A stretch of 64,000 bases of DNA from Rosa chinensis (lineage: Eukaryota; Streptophyta; Magnoliopsida; Rosales; Rosaceae), in contig NC_037090.1 of NCBI RefSeq assembly GCF_002994745.2, positions 8,677,501 through 8,741,500 on the forward strand. The letters run 5' to 3'. Below are positions 1 to 55,169 of the stretch, piece by piece. Made by a program: the position numbers and the translations under genes. The notes beneath the pieces were generated by a model, which was given only the letters and a program-made list of their open reading frames with translations, was not told the DNA's origin and did not search any database. Numbering within the stretch: the first letter of the stretch is position 1; each line of letters starts with the position of its first letter.

Positions 1-499
1 TGGGTAATAGGGAAATAATCCCTTAGAGTGTTTTGGGTAAATGGGGTTAAAAAACTGTTGGTGAAGCAAGTGGGCAATTTTTAAGCTGAAATTGGGTAAA
101 TGATCATTTCCCCAAAAAATTATTTCATATTAATTTTTTTCTTGTGGTGTTGTATCGGCATATATGACAAACAATGAAATTATTGACATGATATTTTGGC
201 CATGTGTATAGATATAGTTTCTTATCTCGAATTTGAATGTGATTTTGTCGCCACTTGTCAAACTATAAGTGGCTGTCCAAATTACGGTTGATATTTTATC
301 TACCACGTAAATTACGGTTGATATTTTATCTACCACGTGTTATATCTTATCTGTTGATATTATTTCAAACCACCCATAAATATGAAGTCATTGTCACTCT
401 CATCTCTCACAAATTCACAAGCACTTCTCATATCTAAATCCTACAAATCCCCAAATTTGTTTTCTTTTGATTTTGTTGAACCGTTTCTGTAATGAATCG
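1..499. other. Intergenic DNA with a 30-bp tandem duplication
   Basis: AT-rich DNA without a convincing gene. Two head-to-tail copies of a 30-bp unit beginning aaattacggttgatatttta lie at 279-308 and 309-338. The first 120 bases carry several gggtaa-type motifs that may be the edge of a small transposon, but no paired inverted repeat was found. Confidence 0.6.
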
Positions 500-1823
500 T
501 TTGACAAAACGGTTGATGAAAGACCAAGAAAAGGCTGTCATGAGAAACCTTCGAAGATCCATGATGATGTCTGGCGCTGCCTTACAAATCTAAACTCTGC
601 AAGATGAGTAATCACTATGAGGTGGTTCTTCAGAAGATCCTAAGTATACCGCCAGAACTCGAGAGTTTATGGATCAACGACTTAAAGCTCAAAACTTCAC
701 GGGTCCATGTAGCTATGAACCAAACATATTTCATAGCCGATATAGAATGTAACCTTGGGTCTTTGACAGGATGTTGCGTGACGTGGCCAACTACGACCCA
801 TATTTTATCCAAACAAGAGATGCTACTAGGAGAGTCGGCTTTTTTATTGAACAAAAGCTGACATGGGCTATGAGGATGCTCGTGTATAGCATTATAGTTG
901 ACTTCTGCGATGAGCTCCTGGACATAGAGGAATCCACTGCCATCGAGATTTTAGAGCTCTTCACGAGAGCAATCTAGAATGTGTACCATGACTACCTCCG
1001 TTGACCAACACTGGTAGATTTGGGAAGACTGCTTAACAAAGCTGCAGAAAGGGGGTTCTCGAGGATGGTTGGGAGCCTTGATTGTATGCATTGAAAGTGG
1101 AAAAGTTGTCCCACCAGATAGGCACGACAGTATACTAGCTACAAGAGAAAACTGACAAATCATCTTAGAGGCGGTGGCCTCCTATGATACTTGGGTTTAG
1201 CACATCTTCTTTGGACTTCCAGGTTCCCTAGATGATATTTACGTCCTTGGATGTTCACCATTGTTCAATGACGTGTGCCTTGGTTAAGTTCCTTAAGTGA
1301 GCTACCACGTAGATGATAGGAATTATGGCCAATGTTATTATATAATTGATGGTATATACCCTAAATGGGCAGCATTTGTACATGCAATTAGAAACCTGAG
1401 GACGCTGGAGACACAATATTTCACAAGGATGCAGGAAGTGTACAAGAAAGATGTGGATAGACATTTAGTATTCTCCAAGCTCGTTGGGAAATTATAAGAG
1501 GGTCAACTTGTGAGTGGAGTAAGGAGAGCCTTGAATACATCATGATGACATACGTTATCTTGCATAATATGATTATCGGAGATGAAAATGACAAAGATGC
1601 AGCAGAGCCATTTGATCCGAATGATATCCCAACCAGACCAAGGAAAGCAGAGGTATATGCTAGATTGGAAATTCACACCAATATTTATCGCAATCTGCAA
1701 CGACTTAATAAAATCTTGTATTGTTATAAAGAGGTTAGATGTCCAGTGATGTATAAAAACCTTCAAGACGATTTAGTCAATCACCTGTGGACCATGAAGC
1801 TACAAGTTGATCAAAATCACTAG
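500..1823 (+). pseudogene. PIF/Harbinger-type DDE transposase relic
   Basis: This is a decayed transposase of the plant PIF/Harbinger (DDE_Tnp_4, HARBI1/ALP1-like) family. Pieces of the protein appear in order but in different frames. They are an N-terminal part around 604-770, a stretch with NYDPYFIQTRDATRR around 771-975, the GSLDCMHWKW motif near 1075-1105 that normally precedes a catalytic Asp region, a WHIFFGLPGS-like segment near 1195-1230, DGIYPKWAAFVHAI near 1345-1390, and the C-terminal MTYVILHNMIIGDEN at 1545-1590. Each junction needs a frameshift or crosses a stop, so no active enzyme is encoded. The second Harbinger protein (Myb-like) and terminal inverted repeats were not recognised. 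The family call rests on motif order and is fairly sure; the exact ends are not. Confidence 0.8.
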
Positions 1824-2941
1824 TGAGGAGTTTTAAATTTATTGTTTTCAATAAGTGGCCATGTTGTCATGATAAGTGGCTACGGCCTAGTTTGATTGTA
1901 TTGTTCTGTGGTGAGCTTTTACTTTGTGCAATCATGCTTTATTATGAAAATGAAAGTTCAATGCTTTATTATTGATAGAAGTAAAAAAAGCGACGATTAC
2001 ATTGTTTAATCCTTTACATTTTACTTAGCTATTTCCTTCAAAAGTCTATTGTAACTTTGTTATTTTCTTAGGTACTTTGTGAAGCAAGTCGAGAGAAAAA
2101 TGAGCTTTAATGGAGCAATGCAGGCATTAAACATGAAGTATAGATGTCAAGGACGAAGTTTGATCGCTCCTTCGGTCAGAAATCACAAAAGAAGATCATG
2201 AAATTTATTGTGCAAAACAGTTTGCTGCAGAACTGAAAACTGTTCAAAATCAGCTTCTTAGATTGAGTTTTGGAGGGCTTTTTAGGTAACCTTTCGAGGG
2301 GACTCTTGCCGTATGGGTTGGCAACACTTGAAGAAAAAATGTTGTATTACAATAGAAGCCTAAGAGATGGTCAGAAACATCAAAGCAGCAGGAAATCATG
2401 CCCAAAGTACGTAGGCTTTCCGAGAAGCTAGAATTCATCAGCTTTTCAAATTGCATTTTGAGAGACTTTTTTTGTGGCCTTTATTGAAGGTTTTTCACAA
2501 AAATGCTCGGTCATTTTAGGATAGCATTTTATAATTTGATTAATAAGGGAAAGAGCATAATCTTAATTTCAGAAGTATTATTAAGAGTTAATTATATAAA
2601 AGGTGCATTTTAGAATGTTATTTTAGTCGGCCACAAACTATTTTTCTCTCTTTTAAGGCTACTAGATTAAATATTGTATTAAATTTTAGATATAAAAACC
2701 AACATATTTACGTAAATGTCACTAAAGTAAAAAGTCAACAAACCTCTCTCTCCAGCGAGTTTCCGGCCGACCTCCGGCAAACTCCGGTTTTCTATATTAT
2801 TAAATAGACGAGTATTACATCAATCATAAGTTCATAACCTAGTAGATGACATATAAAGTAACTTTTGGTAATAACATCACTGTGGATGTCGCCCACACTT
2901 TATTTAACGCTCGATGCTATCACTTTCCATCAATTTGCTCA
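1824..2941. other. Intergenic DNA
   Basis: No supported gene. AT-rich DNA between the transposase relic and the first nsLTP gene. The part nearest 2942 is expected to hold the nsLTP 3' UTR. Short open frames here show no recognisable domain. Confidence 0.5.
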
Positions 2942-3391
2942 TCACTTCACGCTGCAACATCAACAGAAGAAAACAAAAATTAACTTCAGTTTCCATTTGA
3001 GAAAAACACGTACAAATTGTCAACGATTGAGTAGTATATCTACTTACGTGGCGCAGTTGGTGGAGGTGCTGATCTTGTAGGGAACGCTAACTCCACACTT
3101 GCCGGGAAGCCCAGCTGCAAGGTTAGGGTTGAGTCCTTTGATGCCACCGGTAACCTGTTTGAGGCAATTGCAGACGGCCTGGCGGTCAGCGGTGGTCTTG
3201 GCGATGGCGTTAAGGTTTCTAACTCCGTTGCAGCAAGCGGCAGGGACAACGCCGCCACTCTTCACGTAGGTTGTGCAAGGTGCAACGTTGCTCGCCACTT
3301 GGCCGCATGTGATGGCTTGGGCTATGGGCAAAGCAACCACCACGCACAAGAGAGCAACCAAAGTAAGCTTCATAGCATTAGAGCTAGCCAT
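2942..3391 (-). CDS. Type-1 non-specific lipid-transfer protein, copy 1 (two exons)
   Basis: Encodes a secreted nsLTP1, a small helical protein that binds acyl lipids in the apoplast; this family includes the Rosaceae LTP allergens. Exon 1 is 3048-3391 and exon 2 is 2942-2951, joined across a 96-bp intron with a GTAAGTA donor and a GTTGCAG acceptor. Reading through the donor would give a false stop; splicing gives the canonical C-terminal NCATVK. The product is 117 residues: a signal peptide of about 26 ending AQA, then a 91-residue mature protein starting ITCGQ. The eight cysteines fall at mature positions 3, 13, 27, 28, 48, 50, 73 and 87, exactly the nsLTP1 pattern, with TTADR and the PYKIS segment near the end. 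It is the first of three paralogues in the same orientation. Nothing suggests loss of function. Confidence 0.96.
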
Positions 3392-3482
3392 AATGCACTC
3401 GGAGGATGATGAGCTTGGAATGGGTATGTAATCACTTGTTTTGGGAGAGCTTGAGTGAGTGAAGGGGCAACGCGGATGGGGA

Positions 3483-3489
3483 TTATATA
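3483..3489 (-). promoter_or_regulatory. TATA box of nsLTP copy 1
   Basis: TATATAA on the minus strand lies about 92 bp upstream of the start codon. The two other nsLTP genes have the same motif at nearly the same distance, which supports a real core promoter. Confidence 0.75.
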
Positions 3490-5090
3490 GGGGAGTGGGG
3501 TGAGTTTCTCCAAGTTTCCTTAGCCCTTCGGGTCCATCACATCAGTCATTACTTATTGGTTGTGACATCAATTCTGGTGATGTTTTGATGGTAAAACATA
3601 TAAAATTATATGTGCCATATGTTTTTAAACCATTGGAAACTTCTGGACTACAAGTTTAATTTGGGAGAGAATTACATGCATAAACAAGTCCATGTAGGAA
3701 CTACTTTTCAGCAATATTTTTTTAAGAAACTTGTAAAAATAGTTTTCAAATTATGTGTGCACTTTCACTTGTTATATATCTTTTTTCAAGAAAAGTGAAA
3801 ATACTTTCCAACAGGGAACGTGGTTTCAACTATTTCTGTTAAACCTAAAAATGCATTTTCCTTGATCACTCAAACTATAAGTAATGACTGTTTGGAATTT
3901 TATGACAACTCCACAATCACTCAAACAGTAAGGTCAGTGTTATATCTCTATCAAACTATATATGTCATTACTCAAAGTGTGTACGTGTAGGAGGAGTTGG
4001 GAAGGATTCTGTTGGCAGTTGTGCTCACTTTAATGCTTGGGTACGTACAATATACTTTTTGGTTTTTAAAATGGTAGTTGGGCACGTCCGTTACATCCTA
4101 TCAAAAGAAAACTGAAAACCTCAATCAATATATTTCAACCTACTCTTGAAAAATATACACATGTGCATTAGACATGCAACCGTCCAATTAATTTCAACTA
4201 ATTGATAAATTAAAGAATTTGGACCGAAAATCTATTTGTTTTAGACAATTAAAAGAAATCATAAAGTATGTCGACATTCATCATAAAAAACTGAAAGTTT
4301 TATTCATACATTCAGAATTGACATTTAAATATTTATTTTCTTTCATGTTACATGTTAAATTACCAAAAATGACAGAAAAGAATGAATAAAAAAGAGTCTC
4401 TTCTTATCTCCACGAATAGTACGTAGTCTTTAACTTCGAGAAAACCTTCTTCTCCAACATAAACTCCTTTTTTCGAATTTCAATCTTACATTTCTAGATT
4501 ATACCATAAATTTCTATTTAGATATTCAATATCTGAGAGAGAGAGAGAGGTTTTTTTTATTATTATTTATTATTTAGTTTAATTGTAAATGTAGATGGAG
4601 ATGTCCCTTCTATTCTTGTTGTAAATGTTCAAATGCCTATTCTTTAAGCCTTCTTTTCCCAAGCAAACCTCTTATATTCTTTATCTATTTTAGTTTATTT
4701 CATCTTGTCTGGAAGAAAGATGCTATAAACAATGAAGATTATTGTTTGTTTTGGTAGATAACATATTGCTTATTTTTCAAAGTAAGTTGAAGGTTTATTA
4801 AGTGGGAAGGTTCAAATACAAATTTTGGATGTATGAATAGAAATTTTCTATAAAAAAAATATGTAGAACGCAATAGAAAAAAATATGCAACAATGTATCG
4901 TTGACATAGTTTCTAAGGAGGTTATCATCTGGTCATTAATTGTATATAAAATAAAGCCATGGTATGCGTTAGAGGCTCGGCTCAAAATTATTACCAAAGT
5001 CATTCAAAATTAGCTACCATTTTCAATTTAATTTACTTTCAACATGTCTTTTGGGAAGTAAATCTTGGTCACACAATCCAGGAGTAGCGG
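3490..5090. other. Intergenic DNA upstream of nsLTP copy 1
   Basis: AT-rich DNA with no supported gene. The first few hundred bases upstream of the TATA box are expected to be promoter. A short GA run (4534-4549) is present. I see no transposon ends here. Confidence 0.5.
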
Positions 5091-47412: not shown

Positions 47413-47527
47413 AATGGAAATTTTTTTCAGGTGAACAAAAATTAAAGAACCCATAACAACTTCGTAGTGTCTGACCACGTTGTAGTCCTACAACTAACTG
47501 GAAGTAGGGTAGTGCGATTTTGCACTC

Positions 47528-47794
47528 TGTTAGGATCCCCAGGATAACGCCAATGGTATGACATTGCGAAATGAAACAAAGAGAAATTCTAGAGAAAACT
47601 AAGAAAATAGAAATGCATATTTTTCATTCATAGATCTGTTGTACAAGAAAGTTAGTAGATAAAGAACAGTTTAGGACACGTGTCGACCAACTAGTGAAGA
47701 CCCCTACCTAACATACTCCCAGCACAAGGACCAAAAGGTGCGCACCAACTAAATAAACGCTGCGTTTTAATTGTAAATAAAATGAATCATAACA
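47528..47794 (-). repeat. 3' LTR of the gene-capturing element
   Basis: 267 bp beginning tgttaggatcccc and ending gaatcataaca in plus orientation, TG...CA. Uninterrupted reference copy for the partner at 54393. Confidence 0.88.
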
Positions 47795-47823
47795 TTTCTT
47801 CCCCCTTAAACAGAAACTTGACC

Positions 47824-48294
47824 TCAAGTTTCACTTTTAGAATCAACTTCTAGCATGCTGAAGATTGTCCTCAGTTCGGATATGAGATACATAGTAAGCA
47901 CATCAACAATAATAGCTCTAGGCCAAGCAGTAAACACAAAGAGGTAAATCTTCAACACTGCAAGACCAAGAACAACATGATATCCATAACTCCTTTTCCA
48001 ATCATTCAATCCATGAGTTAATAAGCAGAGAATAAGATGAAGCCAACCAACATCACTTGTGTTCAACATCTCAACAACAGTGGTGTCAATGCAATGAAGA
48101 GCAGCAAGGCTATTGTCACCAAGATCATGGGCTAAGGTGTCAAGATTATCATCTAAATAAGTAGAGAAATCATGAACCCGCAAAACGAAATTTAGAAACA
48201 ATTGTTGTTCATCTTCTTCTGAAACTATTGGAATAATTGCAAGTGCAGCACATTTTCCGTAGATCTCTTGCATAAATCTTTTTGTCTTCCCATC
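47824..48294 (-). other. Unidentified coding-like segment inside the gene-capturing element
   Basis: An open frame continuing directly from the MOS14 fragment for about 156 codons (from DGKTKRFMQEIYGK to EVDSKSET). It is not part of MOS14 as I know it and I do not recognise it. It contains a leucine-rich hydrophobic stretch (HVVLGLAVLKIYLFVFTAWP). It ends just before the purine tract. Confidence 0.4.
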
Positions 48295-49217
48295 ATTTCC
48301 CATGTGCTCAGATCTGAAAAGTTTATCTAGCATTGGCCAAAACACTTGCAATAGCAGAAGCATACAACTATCTCCAGAATATACACTCTGCCCTGATGTT
48401 ACAAGATGGTTGAATACAGTTTCCACCTTGTAAAGCTCTCCAGCACCATAATTCAAAATTTGTGTATAGGTGGCAGGTTTTTGTCGGAGGCAATGATTGT
48501 TATCAACAGATTTCCCAATAGCTTCAAAGCTAGAAGAAAGCAATCTAGCCAATAAGTTCCTCATTAACTCTTTGTTATAAATAGAACCACAGATCATACT
48601 AACTGCACTAACAACTTCTTTCTCATCTTCCCAAGGTAAATGAATGTTCTCGAGACACTCTCCTATCCACATCAATATCTCCAAATTTGAAGGTTCATAC
48701 ATCACTATAGAGCATCTTCAAAAAATTTACGCAATGCAGATGCACAAGGACTCAAGGATATGGTTTCTGATATTCCAGCAGCAAGAAAAAACAACAAGGG
48801 TCTAGCAATTGTTTGAAAAACAGAGATCCACATAGAATAGGAGTCAATAACATCTGCAAGATATCTATACAGAGTGCACATACTACCCTTCAGTTCATCC
48901 AGAGGCCTAATGGACCAAACCATCAACTGCATAATGACCGAGAAATCAAAGATTTGACTTTTCTGTAGGATTACCTTTGCGACCACATTAAAAGAAAATA
49001 ACTTGATCTCCACATCCTTCCAAGCTATTAGTGCAATTGCAGAAGCCCAAACACCAAAGAAAAGCTTCTGTACAACTATAACATATATTAAAAGCTGACA
49101 AATATCCACCAATAGTTCAACAAGATTCATTCTAAAATAAACAAGGCCAATAGGCAGCTCCGGTGTTCCTTGGTCGCCATTGAACATAGAATCATCCACC
49201 TGGGCACGTAATAAAAG
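48295..49217 (-). pseudogene. Captured fragment of transportin-SR (MOS14/TNPO3 family)
   Basis: Transportin-SR imports SR splicing factors into the nucleus. About 305 residues of the middle of such a protein are recognisable. They run from [15 protein letters not shown] through [44 protein letters not shown] and [11 protein letters not shown]. After a single-base deletion near 48710 they continue with YEPSNLEILMWIGECLE, NKELMRNLLARLLSSSFEAI, LRQKPATYTQILN and VFWPMLDKLFRSEHM. The native gene has many introns, but none interrupts this stretch, which suggests capture from spliced RNA. It lacks the N-terminal Ran-binding region and the C-terminal HEAT repeats, so it is non-functional as a transportin. 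Confidence 0.85.
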
Positions 49218-49757
49218 TGTATCCAAGGTATATAAAAGATATTGCAAACACTTTTCATTTGGCTTCATATGGTTTTCAAGAGAATTCACATGCAACTCTT
49301 TTGTACAATACTCATTTGCAGTAGTTACTAAATATTTCCATCTTTCCTAATTGTCAGCCAATATCATTTTCATAATTGTATCCATTTCCTTGTATAACTC
49401 AGTAGCTTCAATTAAATGCAATTGAATACTTGCACTTGCAACAACAATCTTGACATCTAATGGATCAAACTGATAATTATGTTGCAGCGAATTTGTAAAT
49501 GCTTCTCCAAACAAAGTATCATAAGGTAAGAATAATTGAAAGCTGATGATCTCCCTTCACAAGTTCTGAAATAAAACAAGGGAAGAGTACTCTTCGACAG
49601 AGCAATAAGGGTCTCTCAATTTCTCCCAACAAAGCAAGCAAAGATTCAACATGGTAATAATCTAGAGCAACATCACACAACTTTTGGAAGCAAAAAATAC
49701 CTGCCTCCAATATCAACAGATCATCTAGGGTAATATCCATGGTGGGTGAGATGTTTG
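49218..49757 (-). other. Unidentified coding-like segment upstream of the MOS14 fragment
   Basis: Broken open frames encode ITLDDLLILEAGIFCFQKLC and ESLLALLGEIERPLLLCRR at 49570-49740, then, after frame changes, a segment ending [20 protein letters not shown] at about 49235-49300. The last piece resembles [20 protein letters not shown] near 52175, so a related module appears twice in the element. I do not recognise the source protein. Confidence 0.4.
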
Positions 49758-52053
49758 TGACGCGCTCTTGGGAGCGCATAATTTAACCCTGAAATATCGT
49801 TAGTAGTATAAGCAAATAGGGATCGTTCTATTCCGGGGATTGAGGGTACACTTGTAATTGTGAAACAAATAAAGAAAAGTATTATTTACAAAAATAAAAT
49901 AAAGAATATAAATATATACAATTGTATAAACAAATAAAGAATTAAAATAATAAAGTATTATTTACAAAAATAAAATAAAGAATAAATATATACAAGTAAA
50001 CACAAATAAGGGGGGGGATTAGGATTCTTAAAATTAAAATTAAAATAAATAAAATAAAGAAAATGTAAAAACATATATACAAGGGTGGAACGCAAGGAAC
50101 AAAGATCAAAATCAATTCCATGTAATCAAATTCGATTCAAACCCTATAATTGTTCTTCCAAGTCATGAGAGAGGAGTTGATCATGTGAAACATTCGAAAG
50201 CAAATTATTTCCCATATTTTACTTTTCAATGCTAATTAACCTAAGCGAAAGCACCTAGATTAATCCTATCAAACATGCAATCAAGCCCTAGAAAGCTAGT
50301 CAATCATGACATGTTCAACGCATTAGACATAGAGAAAGGCTATCAACTCAAGTGTACAACTTAGTTATGGAAAAGTCCACCTAATTGCAATCCTCTTCAA
50401 TTAAATTCGATTCTTGTCCAGAACCTTTACTACTTTTGATTCAAGTTACACAAAACGAAAAGTCGATTTCATGTTCTTAAACCTAGCACCAATTACATGC
50501 AAATCCTATAAGTGTCGACCCAAATAAGATAAGCATATAAAAGTTTTCTGTAAAGCAAATTTAATCGAACAAACTCACATAAGCGACTTAGAATCACAAT
50601 TATAGAATTCGAAAACTTTATTTAAACATAGAAGTTGGGTTTAAACTTTACCCTAAACATTATTGTTAACTAGAAACAAGTTCATATGAATTCAAACAAG
50701 GAAAACAAAAGATCATTACAAGGAAAAAGAATGAATTACACCGTGAGGGGAGATGGAGATGGAGAGCTAGATGGTTGGATCTTGAATCTTGGAAGCAAGC
50801 CTTCAAGTTGGATGATGGAGGATGTGATCTTCACGGCTCCTTCTTCTTCTTCCTCTCCTTGCTTGAAAACGCAGAACTTTGCAACTAGAGAATGGAGAAG
50901 GAAAATGGAAAGGAAATGGAGAGACAAAGAAGATGAGATGGATGAAGGAATATTTGGGAAAATGGAAAGGAAATGGTGAGACAAGGAGATGAAATGGATG
51001 AAGGAATTGGTGGGAAAATGGAAAGGAAATGGAGAGACAAAGAAGATGGAATGGATGAAGGAATGTGTGACTAAGAAAAATGGAGAGGAAATGGTGAGAC
51101 AAGAAGATGAAATGGATGAAGGAATATGTGACTAAGGAAAATGGAGAGGAAATGGTGAGACAAGAAGATGAAATGGATGAAGGAATATGTTTTAGAATGA
51201 GAGGAGAAGGTGTTTATATAGGGAAGAAAAAGAAGAGTGAAATGATGAGTGGAAGAAAAATAATGAAAGTGGAGTATGAAAGTGATTTGTAAAATATGGA
51301 AAAGAAAGAGAAATGATGAAATGAAAGCAAAGCATGAAGGTGCAGCAACATGGAAGTGATGATGATCTATTAAAGAGATTGTAGAAAAAATATATCCAAG
51401 GAAAAAGAGAAAAGCATCTAGCTTTCTTCATGTGGGTGGGAAACATGAATATGTGGTGTTGAGCTGTTTTCAGCTCAGTTTCTTCCCCTTTATTCCTTCA
51501 ATTATTTCTCCAACAAGACTTCATTATATGCCTTCGACTTCTTCATATGAAATGTTCCACTATGAGTGTAGATCATCCTGACAAATTTTCAGAGCTTCAA
51601 TCCATGTGGTTGGGCTGGAAATGCTGCTGGACCTCTTACAGGTCCAGTTTTCCGGTTTTGCTTCTGTAGAAAATTGGGCTGATTGTTTGAAGGCCTTCCA
51701 CTCATATTTTTCTCTGGCACTCTTCATAAGAAATGATCCTTTGGGTGTCTAGAATGGATCTGGAAGGTTTCAGCTCATTTGAAGTTCATTTGGTCAGGCG
51801 GCCGCTCCTTCTTCTTTGCTTGGCTTGGTTTCTCCTAGCCGGAGTAGGAATATGTGTAAAATTGATCTTTTAGTACATTTCCATTTTTCTCCATCATTTC
51901 CAGGTAATTATGGACCTAACGCTCATTTCACCTTCATTTACTCCAATGTACCTAAAAATAGAAATTGAATTAAAAATCGATTCAGTTAAGGAATTAACTA
52001 AGCAAAATGTGAGGAATTAACTATTAAAATATCACATTAAAATGCTCCTATCA
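49758..52053 (-). mobile_element. Nested solo LTR (2.3 kb)
   Basis: The segment begins tgacgcgctcttgggagcgc and ends atgctcctatca, that is TG...CA. It is flanked by the identical 5 bases gtttg (49753-49757 and 52054-52058). No internal coding region, primer site or second LTR is present, so it is read as a solo LTR left after recombination. On the minus strand a TATATAAA lies at 51213-51220. A five-copy minisatellite occupies 50890-51190. Removing it would place the coding-like segments on either side next to each other, confirming it landed in an existing gene-capturing element. A long non-autonomous element is the alternative reading. Confidence 0.75.
50890..51190. repeat. Minisatellite, five units of about 56-61 bp
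   Basis: Units follow the pattern gaaaatgga(a/g)aggaaatgg, then (a/t)gagacaa, then agatgaaatggatgaaggaa. The fourth and fifth units are nearly identical, and the first three carry more differences. Any frame across it gives Lys/Glu/Met/Trp-rich low-complexity peptide. Confidence 0.9.
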
Positions 52054-52110
52054 GTTTGCCGCAAGCTGAAATGATAAATCTCCTTCTAATTTACTCAAAG
52101 AGAATAAAAG

Positions 52111-54444
52111 CTAGTATAAATTCTGATAACTGAATTTGGATCCCAACTTCTGCATTGTATAAGGTGTATACATGGTAGACAGAACATATCCCAAACACTT
52201 CTCATTGAGCTTCATACGGTCTTCAATAAAATTCATATGCATCGCTTTCTTCACATTACATTTAAGTTTTCCAATCATGGTCTCCCAATTTATATCCACC
52301 ATATCCATAAACCACTTCTCTGATACTTCCACCATACCAGTTGGACAATACTTAAGAACTAAAGCAGTGCACACATTAATAATTATCACAAACATATATT
52401 CTTCTTCATTCAAAACAGTAGATGAAACTTTAGGATGACTATCATCATACCTTCTAAGGCTGGACTGCTTATTTATGCATCTCAAGTAGAAAGCAATCAG
52501 CGGTTCAATCAAAATTCTTTGGAAACCACATCTGTGATTATCAACCTTGAAATCATAAGGAGGCATCATGTAGAGATTTGAATTAGGTGGCACCACTCCC
52601 TCTGAAACCATAGCATAATAAACAGGCATTGCCTTTTCCTCCTGACCAATTTGGACCAACGCACTAATCAAAGTATTCCATGAAACAATGTTCCTTTCAG
52701 GCATTTTCAAAAACAACTTTTTAGCATCTTCTAAAGTCTCCAAGCAATTTACAAAATTCACGGCAGGACTATGACTTGAAAACTTCTCATTCTTCTCAAC
52801 AATCTGAACAAAATCAAGCGAAGACAAGCATTCATCAATTCTAAAAACTGATAATGGATGACATTCTAATGGGGCTTGAACACCTGACGCTGGATCAAAT
52901 AGCAGAGAAGCAGTTAGTGAGGAAATGACCTGAGAAACAAGCCTGTTGAGATTGGTATACGTAGGTCGCTCAATGTCAAGCAATCTGCGGCAGATATCAT
53001 AGATGGCTTCATTGTCCAGAAGCACAGCCACATTAGTGTGCTCCCAGAGCGAGCGAGTGGACAAAACATTGTTATAAGGCTCAACAACAGAGGTTGAGAC
53101 CTGAGGAGATGGGTAAACAGTGAATCCAAGCTTAGATTTCTTCCCATAGTCCACAAAGAGCCTCTCCAAGAGTAGAGATCCAAGCCTAGATCCAGTCCCA
53201 CCTCTGACGGCATGGGACACTAGAAACCATTGAAGCCCAGTACAGTTGTCCGCAAGCTTCCGGATCTGATCCACAATCTCCTTCCCAATTGTGTAATGGC
53301 CTCTGGTGAAGTTATTAGCGACGTCCTCTTTGCCGCTGATGAGCTGCTCAGGGTGGAATAGCTGGTAAGTTCCGGTCCTCACCTATTTGATGAAGGTGGG
53401 CTCCAGATCCAGGAACACGGCGCGGGGGATGTGCAATCCGGCTCCGGATTCATTGAAGAAAGTGTTGAAGGCGTCGTCTCCGCCCCCGACTGTCTTGTCA
53501 CTCTGCATTTGGCCAGGCGGAATGTCGTTTTCCTGACGACGTAGCTTCTCGAGCCCGTCCATGATGGCGGAGACGGGGAGCGTGGAATGGAAAACCTCTA
53601 TTTTCTCCGGAACACTTGAAATTGGCGTTGGAGAAGTTGGATTTGTTGCCTTGGAGTTGTGACGTGGGAAGAGGTTGCGCTTGTGGTACATCTTAGACCT
53701 CAAGGACTTACCCACACCATGGAGCATATATGGGTTTCGGGTCTTTTTAGCAACTCTCGCTTTCGCCGCCATGGCGACTCTATGTCTGGAACGCCGAAAC
53801 GACTTGTGATGCAAAGAATTTGGATTTTTTGCCTCTGTAAAGGAGGTTTGTGGGTCAGATGATAAAGAAGAGGAAGATGGTATGGTTTGGATCCAACCCG
53901 CGAATAGAGCTAGGGGCTTACAGTCGCCCACGGAACGAAAAGACGATGAAGGTTTAGGATTTGGAAACTGAGGCTGGGGCATAAAAGTGGGGGCAGCAGG
54001 CGACTGAAAGTTTGGAATTGAAGGATGAATCCAGATATTTGGGGTAGGATGAGGTGAGTGGTAAGGAGGGATTGATGGGGTTTGAGAAGTTATGGTGAGT
54101 GACTGCGGAGCAATGGAAAGAATCGGTTGCAGGTATGGAGGTGGGAAGAACTGTGAGTGAGTCCGAGGAACACATGGAAATTTGTGAGGGAGTAAGTGGC
54201 CATTGATAATGGTTGCAGAAGGGTTGTGTGGCGGAGGTGGGTAAGGGTTTGGTTGTGTCAAATTAGTCACCATCTGAGCTTGGCTATAGGAGTTACCTTG
54301 GAGATGATACGACCCAGCGCAGTAATAGTTGCCGGGTATCCCACCGCCGTAACCGGCCGAAAATAGGCCTAGTTGTGGGCTCTGATACCAGTTGTTAGGA
54401 TCCCCAAGATCCAACCAATGGTATGACATTGCGAAATGAAACAA
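52111..54444 (-). pseudogene. Chimeric ORF of captured host-gene pieces, one in-frame stop
   Basis: A single minus-strand frame of about 777 codons runs from 54444, within the 5' LTR, to 52111, broken only by a TAG at 53383-53385. In order it contains a Pro-rich segment (residues ~60-170, [11 protein letters not shown]), an eL6 ribosomal-protein N-terminal piece (residues 225-267, [11 protein letters not shown]), an unidentified segment, alpha-tubulin from [20 protein letters not shown] through [17 protein letters not shown], an unassigned stretch, a PPR piece ([17 protein letters not shown]) and a further unassigned stretch with NEKCL. Differences from normal tubulin include loss of one Arg in the RTGTY-QLF segment and four residues after EIVD, both in-frame. 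The nucleotide-binding signature has become RGGTGSR, so it cannot be working tubulin. Whether any fused protein is made is unknown. Confidence 0.8.
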
Positions 54445-54650
54445 AGAGAAATTCTAGAGAAAACCAAGAAAATAGAAATGCAAATTTTTCATTCATAGAT
54501 CTGTTGTACAAGAAAGCTAGTAGATAAAGAACTGTTTAGGACACGCGTCGACCAACTAGTGAAGACCCCTACCTAACATACTCCCAGCACAAGGACCAAA
54601 CGGTGCGCACCAACTAAATAAACGCTGCGTTTTAATTGTAAATAAAATTA

Positions 54651-55142
54651 AGGGAAAATTTCGCAAACAGTACATCAAGTAAAGACCACTAATAAATCTT
54701 ATACACAAAGTTTCAAACCAAACATTTCAGTACACGAAATCTGAAACTCAACCCACTATCAGTACACGACGTCAATTTTTGACATCAAAATGTCCATTAT
54801 GCCCTAAGTTCTTTTTTTTTTTTAAATAAATTTTTTTTCCCTTGGTTTATAAATGACACGAGTAATTTTTTTTTCTGTTATGCGAGGTGAGTAAGGCGGC
54901 GTTGGAAGCGAGGAAGTGAGCTCGGAAGAAGGAAGAAGAAAGAGATAAAACGAAGGAAAAAATAATAATTAAAAAAAAAAAGAACTGAGGGCATAATGGA
55001 CATTTTGGTGTCAAAAATTGACATCGTGTACTGATAGTGGGTCGAGTTTCAGATTTCGTGTACCGAAATGTTTGGTTTGAAACTTTGTGTATAAGAATTA
55101 TTAGTGGCCTTTACTTGGTGTACTGTTTGCGAAATTTACCCT
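54651..55142. mobile_element. Foldback-type MITE with TIRs of about 165 bp, inside the 5' LTR
   Basis: The left arm, starting agggaaaatttcgcaaacag, is almost perfectly inverse to the right arm ending gcgaaatttaccct. Pairing extends about 165 bp on each side with roughly 95 percent identity. It interrupts the LTR of the gene-capturing element, duplicating aaaat (54644-54648 and 55143-55147). The short loop is AG-rich and non-coding. Transcribed, it would form a long hairpin. Confidence 0.88.
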
Positions 55143-55169
55143 AAAATGAATCATAACACACTCCCTCCC

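Follow-up and report, generated by a model that had tools for sequence, protein, structure and literature searches.

The window analysed here, a 64,000-nucleotide stretch of Rosa chinensis DNA (NCBI RefSeq assembly GCF_002994745.2, contig NC_037090.1, positions 8,677,501 to 8,741,500 of the forward strand), harbours at 47528–55158 a long terminal repeat (LTR) retrotransposon whose sense strand is the minus strand and whose interior carries pieces of host genes. Its 3′ LTR, 267 bp with TG...CA ends (47528–47794, placed by repeat comparison and genome matches), and its 5′ LTR (54393–55158) are 95.4% identical over 259 bp, and both start with TGTTAG and end with ATAACA; an LTR-sized repeat of this quality lies far beyond chance. 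The target-site duplication CACTC is present as perfect 5-bp copies on either side of the element (47523–47527 and 55159–55163). On the minus strand, the sequence just past the 5′ LTR reads ACTGGTATCAGAGCCC; a primer-binding site, TGGTATCAGAGC (54379–54390), presumably the classical initiator-Met primer site, begins two bases beyond that LTR, and a polypurine tract, AAGGGGGAAGAAA (47795–47807), lies directly before the 3′ LTR. The TG...CA LTRs, the target duplication, the primer site and the purine tract had been listed in a first-pass annotation, a model's reading of the letters without database searches, and all were borne out.

Two nested insertions, which we count as later events, interrupt the element. 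The 5′ (right) LTR holds an insertion of about 500 bp with inverted arms of 189 bp (~54650–55145); it resembles a miniature inverted-repeat transposable element, its arms are 92% complementary, and it lies near a TAAAAT repeat. The interior is split by a 2,296-bp TG...CA insertion (49758–52053) between copies of GTTTG (49753–49757 and 52054–52058), which is solo-LTR-like in appearance and contains tandem repeats of ~56–62 bp at 50.9–51.2 kb. Neither insertion figured in the first-pass annotation, nor did a long reading frame that starts in the LTR.

This frame begins with MSYHW inside the LTR, the final part of its opening stretch is encoded by the primer site, and it then proceeds through a proline-rich leader, the N-terminus of ribosomal protein L6 (eL6), a linker, alpha-tubulin, a PPR module and a further module, with one in-frame stop. 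The first open frame (53386–54429, minus strand) ends at this stop within the tubulin part, and the same frame resumes at 52114–53382. When all three sense frames were scanned, eL6 (residues 230–266), tubulin (321–487) and PPR (589–619) fell into a single one. The eL6 fragment (53653–53763) matches Pfam Ribosomal_L6e_N with E 3.4e-5 at 24.4 bits, just below the cut-off of 25, and its counterpart in the related element L024 reaches 34.5 bits; the alpha-tubulin fragment (52894–53515) is recognized with E 8.7e-29 in Pfam and 5.6e-86 in the PDB. The PPR module (52564–52884) contains one PPR repeat (52594–52686; Pfam E 5.8e-10), and next to it lies a module that recurs in the family (52114–52560; residues 275–423 of its open reading frame, ORF). 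These fragments are all encoded on the minus strand, so that the claimed eL6, alpha-tubulin and PPR pieces are indeed present in the sense of the element. A fourth assignment, MOS14/transportin in the 3′ interior (47795–49752, minus strand, several frames), was not confirmed: the ORFs at 47827–48717 and 48708–49346 had no significant Pfam or PDB match, and the predicted fold of this region has a pLDDT of 38.5.

The element belongs to a family. Searching the genome (515,083,735 bases) with the window LTR gave 46 candidates, 40 of which were scored, and at least 41 matches, the window's own two included; this number is a lower bound. Genomic stretches are designated L0xx below: 27 surround LTR matches, and L044 and L045 were added via a shared interior module. 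In this set, 20 two-LTR elements were identified, counting the one in the window; three of the 20 (L009/L010, L016/L017 and L026/L027) are LTR pairs 15–22 kb apart that contain inserts. A perfect 5-bp duplication flanks 16 of the 20: cactc (window), ttagg, ctgtg, caaca, caata, gaccc, tccaa (twice), gggat, gcccc, gagcc, gttac, gaccc, aagag, ccttc and ggctt, where the duplication of L045 rests on reading its LTR start as TCTTATG/TGTTATG. Because L018 and L019 share their flanks and represent one insertion duplicated together with its surroundings, these amount to 15 independent insertions. The same insertion with matching flanks is seen at three places on contig 3 (L018, L019 and L020; tccaa in L018 and L019), and L018 has an extra stretch of ~2.9 kb that is missing from L019. 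As for the remaining four elements, the LTRs of L014 are truncated, the flanks of L031 agree at 4 of 5 positions, those of L016/L017 disagree, and one flank of L044 falls outside the fetched stretch.

LTR-flanking primer-binding site and polypurine tract are features of the family as a whole, and the 14 elements whose length was measured span 3,652–7,560 bp. LTR divergence, computed for 15 of the 20 elements, is lowest in L021, with 0 substitutions in 268 bp, and highest in L014, at K 0.062 (taken from 169 bp of its truncated LTRs). Given LTR pairs such as those of L021 and of L024 (1 substitution in 303 bp), some insertions must be very recent, and so must the activity of the family. Chimeras have spread in their entirety to new genomic positions: L025 (gttac) and L033 (aagag) occupy different sites but share 98% identity over 4.87 kb, the same is true of L011 (ctgtg) and L012 (caaca) at ~95%, and most of the length of L021, which lies on contig 7, matches the split contig-4 pair L016/L017 at 94–100%. 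The proposal that the window element might represent a mobile, gene-capturing LTR family is upheld by these near-identical chimeras with their different duplications; the suggestion of a Rosaceae family is shown for Rosa only, where proteins of R. chinensis and R. sericea attest to it.

To catalogue the cargo, the interiors of 12 elements were scanned against Pfam in three sense frames each, using curated cut-offs. Sixteen host families reach the cut-off: Tubulin, PPR, Ribosomal_L6e_N, V_ATPase_I, HMG-CoA_red, Ebp2, DUF913, FKBP_C, FACT-Spt16_Nlob, OTU, Helicase_C, Enolase_C, SNRNP200_wHTH, TPR_IMB1, Arm and IBN_N. Arm passes narrowly, and FKBP_C, which is also matched in the PDB, passes only in a single-frame scan (21.2 versus 21.1; 20.2 in the three-frame scan). 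PDB comparisons add SF3B1 and WD40 repeats, and NCBIfam a GroEL-type stretch below its cut-off. The first-pass annotation called such a multi-gene element rare; with 16 protein families over 12 members, the window element is an ordinary representative of its family. By eye, a further chimera with OTU, U-box and nucleoredoxin-like pieces lies at L046:671–3705, next to a primer-site motif.

No gag, protease, reverse transcriptase or integrase family reached the cut-off in the three sense frames of the 12 scanned elements, in agreement with the earlier statement that no retroviral domain is left; weak hAT-like_RNase-H matches in L015 and L021 stay far under the cut-off. Since no gag-pol of its own was found in these elements, we regard the family as non-autonomous. 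An antisense control returned no match in six frames of two elements.

How host sequences entered the elements is best seen for alpha-tubulin. The tubulin piece is 90–94% identical to its best-matching gene and presumed donor, an intact alpha-tubulin gene on contig 2 near 83,113,634 (L039), which has several exons and encodes the protein MRECISIHIGQAG...EDEEY; the seven other loci fetched in the donor search are either the window itself or only 71–77% identical. Two introns of the L039 gene, 97 and 449 nt long with GT...AG ends, are exactly missing from the window element (lengths were read at the junctions; the ends of the BLAST pieces had given 124 and 445 nt), and because both are exactly absent, the piece was captured from a spliced mRNA. 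Moreover, where the piece begins, it is similar to the closing bases of the preceding exon (15 of 18 agree across the splice, with an intron of 99 nt), which suggests the loss of a third intron.

DNA transposons are known agents of gene-fragment mosaics in plants, as a 2026 review describes (PMC13317346), and it could be argued that the mosaics were assembled by DNA-level capture in the style of Pack-MULEs or Helitrons, or that a DNA transposon mosaic acquired its LTRs later. With two alpha-tubulin introns exactly lost in the one donor tested, mosaics bordered in 16 of the 20 elements by LTRs with primer site and purine tract and by a 5-bp duplication, and an empty antisense control in two elements, the Rosa elements do not fit the pattern of terminal inverted repeats or Helitron ends with retained introns, and we consider such an origin scarcely tenable.

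The junctions speak to a different possibility, namely that unrelated processed pseudogenes were inserted one after another into an old LTR element and that no gene-capturing family exists. Members do carry different pieces, as separate arrival would produce, and nested insertions do occur. However, the tubulin piece is internal to its donor mRNA, and its 3′ end runs directly into a module shared with L035, with an overlap of at most a base or so and no poly(A) at this one junction examined: an internal fragment joined straight to another fragment is not the structure of a processed pseudogene, which is a copy of one gene with poly(A) and a duplication of its own. The pieces also lie in one orientation and mostly in one frame, and chimeras are copied whole (L025/L033 and L011/L012), so that successive independent insertion is already largely refuted and appears very unlikely.

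The differing interiors nevertheless call for one correction. The first-pass annotation had named LTRs paired with different internal regions, as a sign that the fragments had arrived separately, among the findings that would refute it; this is what the family displays, and the fragments did come separately. They were gained successively and reshuffled inside elements, so that no single capture brought in all four. Mobility is not refuted by this, because the mosaic moves together with LTRs, primer site and leader.

An all-against-all comparison of 15 elements revealed that modules occur in different combinations, and in the seven elements examined the best-matching neighbour switches along the length of the element. 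The eL6 fragment of the window, for instance, is also found in L019, L024 and L025, its PPR module in L035, the adjacent recurrent module in L014, L031, L035, L044 and L045, and parts of its 3′ interior in L024, L025, L031 and L033. L013 corresponds to L011/L012 over its first 1.2 kb, continues with ~1.9 kb of PPR sequence present in no other fetched member, returns to an SPT16 module 94–95% identical to L011/L012 and closes with a 3′ end 99% identical to L012. The 5′ part of L018 is like L023 and L024, its 3′ part like L015, L021 and L016. Even the LTRs look recombinant, as the end of the L013 LTR and the rest of it differ in their best match: the end is 98–99% identical to L024, while the interior and the remainder of the LTR are closest to L010–L012. 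In L045, the LTR and the first 630 leader bases match none of the other members compared, yet interior modules of it recur in the window, L014, L018, L030, L031 and L044, which suggests exchange between distinct LTR families. L045 itself is a two-LTR element (55–4289 of that stretch) with a 907-aa frame containing WD40 and PPR pieces. Comparable combinations are annotated as proteins in Rosa sericea, where P0001 joins the same leader and eL6 to a nucleotidyltransferase domain, and P0020, a gene model of 1,339 aa, has PPR and V-ATPase domains and, by eye, the PPR module and the recurrent module of the window.

A second property of the mosaics concerns their reading frames. Adjacent domains of different families share a frame in 11 of 16 cases in the 12 elements, as opposed to one third expected (binomial p = 0.004). 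This count includes matches below the cut-off (eL6 in the window, TPR_12, Enolase_N, PK, HMGR in L019 and FKBP_C at 20.2) and omits three weak ones, mRNA_G-N7_MeTrfase (L024), hAT-like_RNase-H (L021) and CFAI_FIMAC_N (L031), with which it would become 13 of 19; the hAT-like match in L015 contributes no junction. The longest frames measure 988 (L024), 944 (L015), 928 (L025), 907 (L045) and 824 aa (L044). It is quite conceivable, if somewhat short of probable, that in-frame joins and long frames are mere by-products of coding fragments with few stops, seen in a small and non-independent sample: there are only 16 junctions, some of them homologous, and 5 of the 16 are out of frame. On the other hand, the binomial test speaks against such a by-product, and frameshifts acquired later should mostly have reduced the in-frame count.

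Long frames of 824–988 aa in five elements, together with the excess of in-frame junctions, could also mean that selection maintains the mosaic ORFs because their product is a functional protein of the element or the host, as has been suggested for maize Bs1. Uncorrected dN/dS between copies appears to favour this, ranging from 0.39 to 1.18, with 0.39–0.66 in 12 of the 15 pairs that yielded a value and results below 1 in 14 of them. Once a null model matched for trinucleotide context was applied (15 runs, 12 pairs), nearly all of this signal disappeared: the nonsynonymous/synonymous ratio came to 0.71–1.14 of the null, and 11 of the 15 runs were still below 1, but only one had p < 0.05. Purifying selection on amino acids is therefore not convincingly supported and is not claimed here. 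Furthermore, L033 is nearly identical to L025 and its frame is already broken, and the cargo varies widely among members; a functional protein is thus an unlikely explanation. Taken together, the frame data weakly suggest that openness of the frame matters and amino-acid content does not.

We favour, with considerable confidence, the explanation that a non-autonomous Rosa LTR family has repeatedly captured host mRNAs by template switching and that its members recombine with one another. Element RNA would be taken up, together with host mRNA, into particles that an autonomous element provides; during reverse transcription, the enzyme would then switch from the element RNA to the host mRNA and back, thereby inserting an internal stretch of the latter, and switches between RNAs of different family members would reshuffle the fragments. 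A filter for open frames could leave open-frame chimeras over-represented, either because translated RNA escapes nonsense-mediated decay or because packaging needs translation, with the amino-acid sequence itself seemingly of little importance. A bolder version, which we put forward tentatively and consider rather doubtful, is that of a standing Rosa LTR lineage for which mRNA capture by template switching is the normal way of being built, gag-pol having been wholly replaced by a changing library of host exon fragments that is recombined between members, with the long frame kept open, whatever its amino-acid sequence, because translation protects the genomic RNA. If true, such a lineage would constitute a continuously running exon shuffler.

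Several points weigh against capture by template switching as set out here. Intron loss was checked for one donor only, 99 of 829 candidates were scored in the search for donors, and the one junction examined has no clear microhomology. Some modules, such as those of L015, match no known family above the cut-off, leaving their host origin unproven, and the antisense frames covered two elements only. The 16 junctions are partly non-independent (eL6–HMGR occurs in both L019 and L024), the context-matched selection test gave the near-neutral ratios cited above, and the split pair L016/L017 is without a matching duplication. Finally, an inspection of the ORFs at 13 loci, some of them long-span pairs or lone LTR hits, turned up no autonomous partner.

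Nested elements that resemble Gypsy gag-pol by eye do lie in some of these 13 loci; none is tied to the gene-mosaic family.

The principle of capture is already known. Maize Bs1 is an LTR element that took up parts of three host genes and gave rise to a chimeric gene, according to the 2026 review (PMC13317346), and its exon-only capture is stated by Gao et al. (2016, PMC4717578), whose paper also reports that the soybean element GmaRetroS15, a terminal-repeat retrotransposon in miniature (TRIM), contains intron-free pieces of three genes. The window element is like Bs1 in its hybrid eL6–tubulin–PPR frame, its host fragments in sense and its missing tubulin introns (one donor tested), a comparison by description that claims no sequence kinship. 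Whereas Bs1 is one element with three segments, the Rosa family comprises 20 elements with differing mosaics, a much wider donor range and module exchange; Bs1 and GmaRetroS15 can hence be regarded as smaller precedents of which the Rosa family is the extreme form. The gene-carrying TRIMs of that paper measure 1,172–1,449 bp (PMC4717578), compared with ~3.7–7.6 kb for unsplit Rosa elements, which have frames of up to 988 aa and recombinant modules. The Rosa elements are accordingly not the very small elements to which the term TRIM applies. Large retrotransposon derivatives, or LARDs, consist of LTRs around a gag-pol-free interior and are moved in trans; the Rosa elements share the gag-pol-free interior, but theirs is made of host coding mosaics instead of the conserved non-coding sequence of LARDs.

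In pepper and other plants, spliced mRNAs have been retroduplicated by LTR elements of which most lack gag or pol, and individual elements that hold two or three genes have been reported (Kim et al. 2017, PMC5664825). This retroduplication mainly concerns individual genes, NLRs foremost, whereas the Rosa family fuses short internal fragments of many genes. Published genome-wide gene capture by LTR elements is similar in kind, but is defined there as annotated genes inside LTR elements, and the accessible text does not contain a shared multi-gene mosaic family. Neither the literature searched, which most subscription journals lie beyond, nor the available part of a strawberry paper (PMC2890015) yielded a description of a gene-mosaic LTR family of rose or of such a family, respectively. 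As far as this literature shows, the scale, the in-frame mosaics of many genes and the family-wide reshuffling are undescribed.

So far, LTR gene capture has been documented chiefly by isolated cases or by retrocopies of one gene. Recent copies, more than a dozen different chimeras, one identified donor and module exchange make the capture mechanism testable in these natural gene-fragment mixers, including the choice of mRNAs, the points at which the enzyme switches and the reason why frames remain open. There is also a practical side: element pieces stand among the published rose gene models under the names tubulin, V-type ATPase or HMG-CoA reductase, and the size of gene families is miscounted accordingly. 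The R. chinensis protein P0002, named tubulin, matches the second frame of the window element at 154 of 156 residues, and P0019, whose name refers to HMG-CoA reductase and V-type ATPase, is 100% identical to the L024 frame over 99%. By identity, the Rosa gene models P0002, P0003 and P0019 are element pieces, and P0001, P0020 and P0055 look similar.

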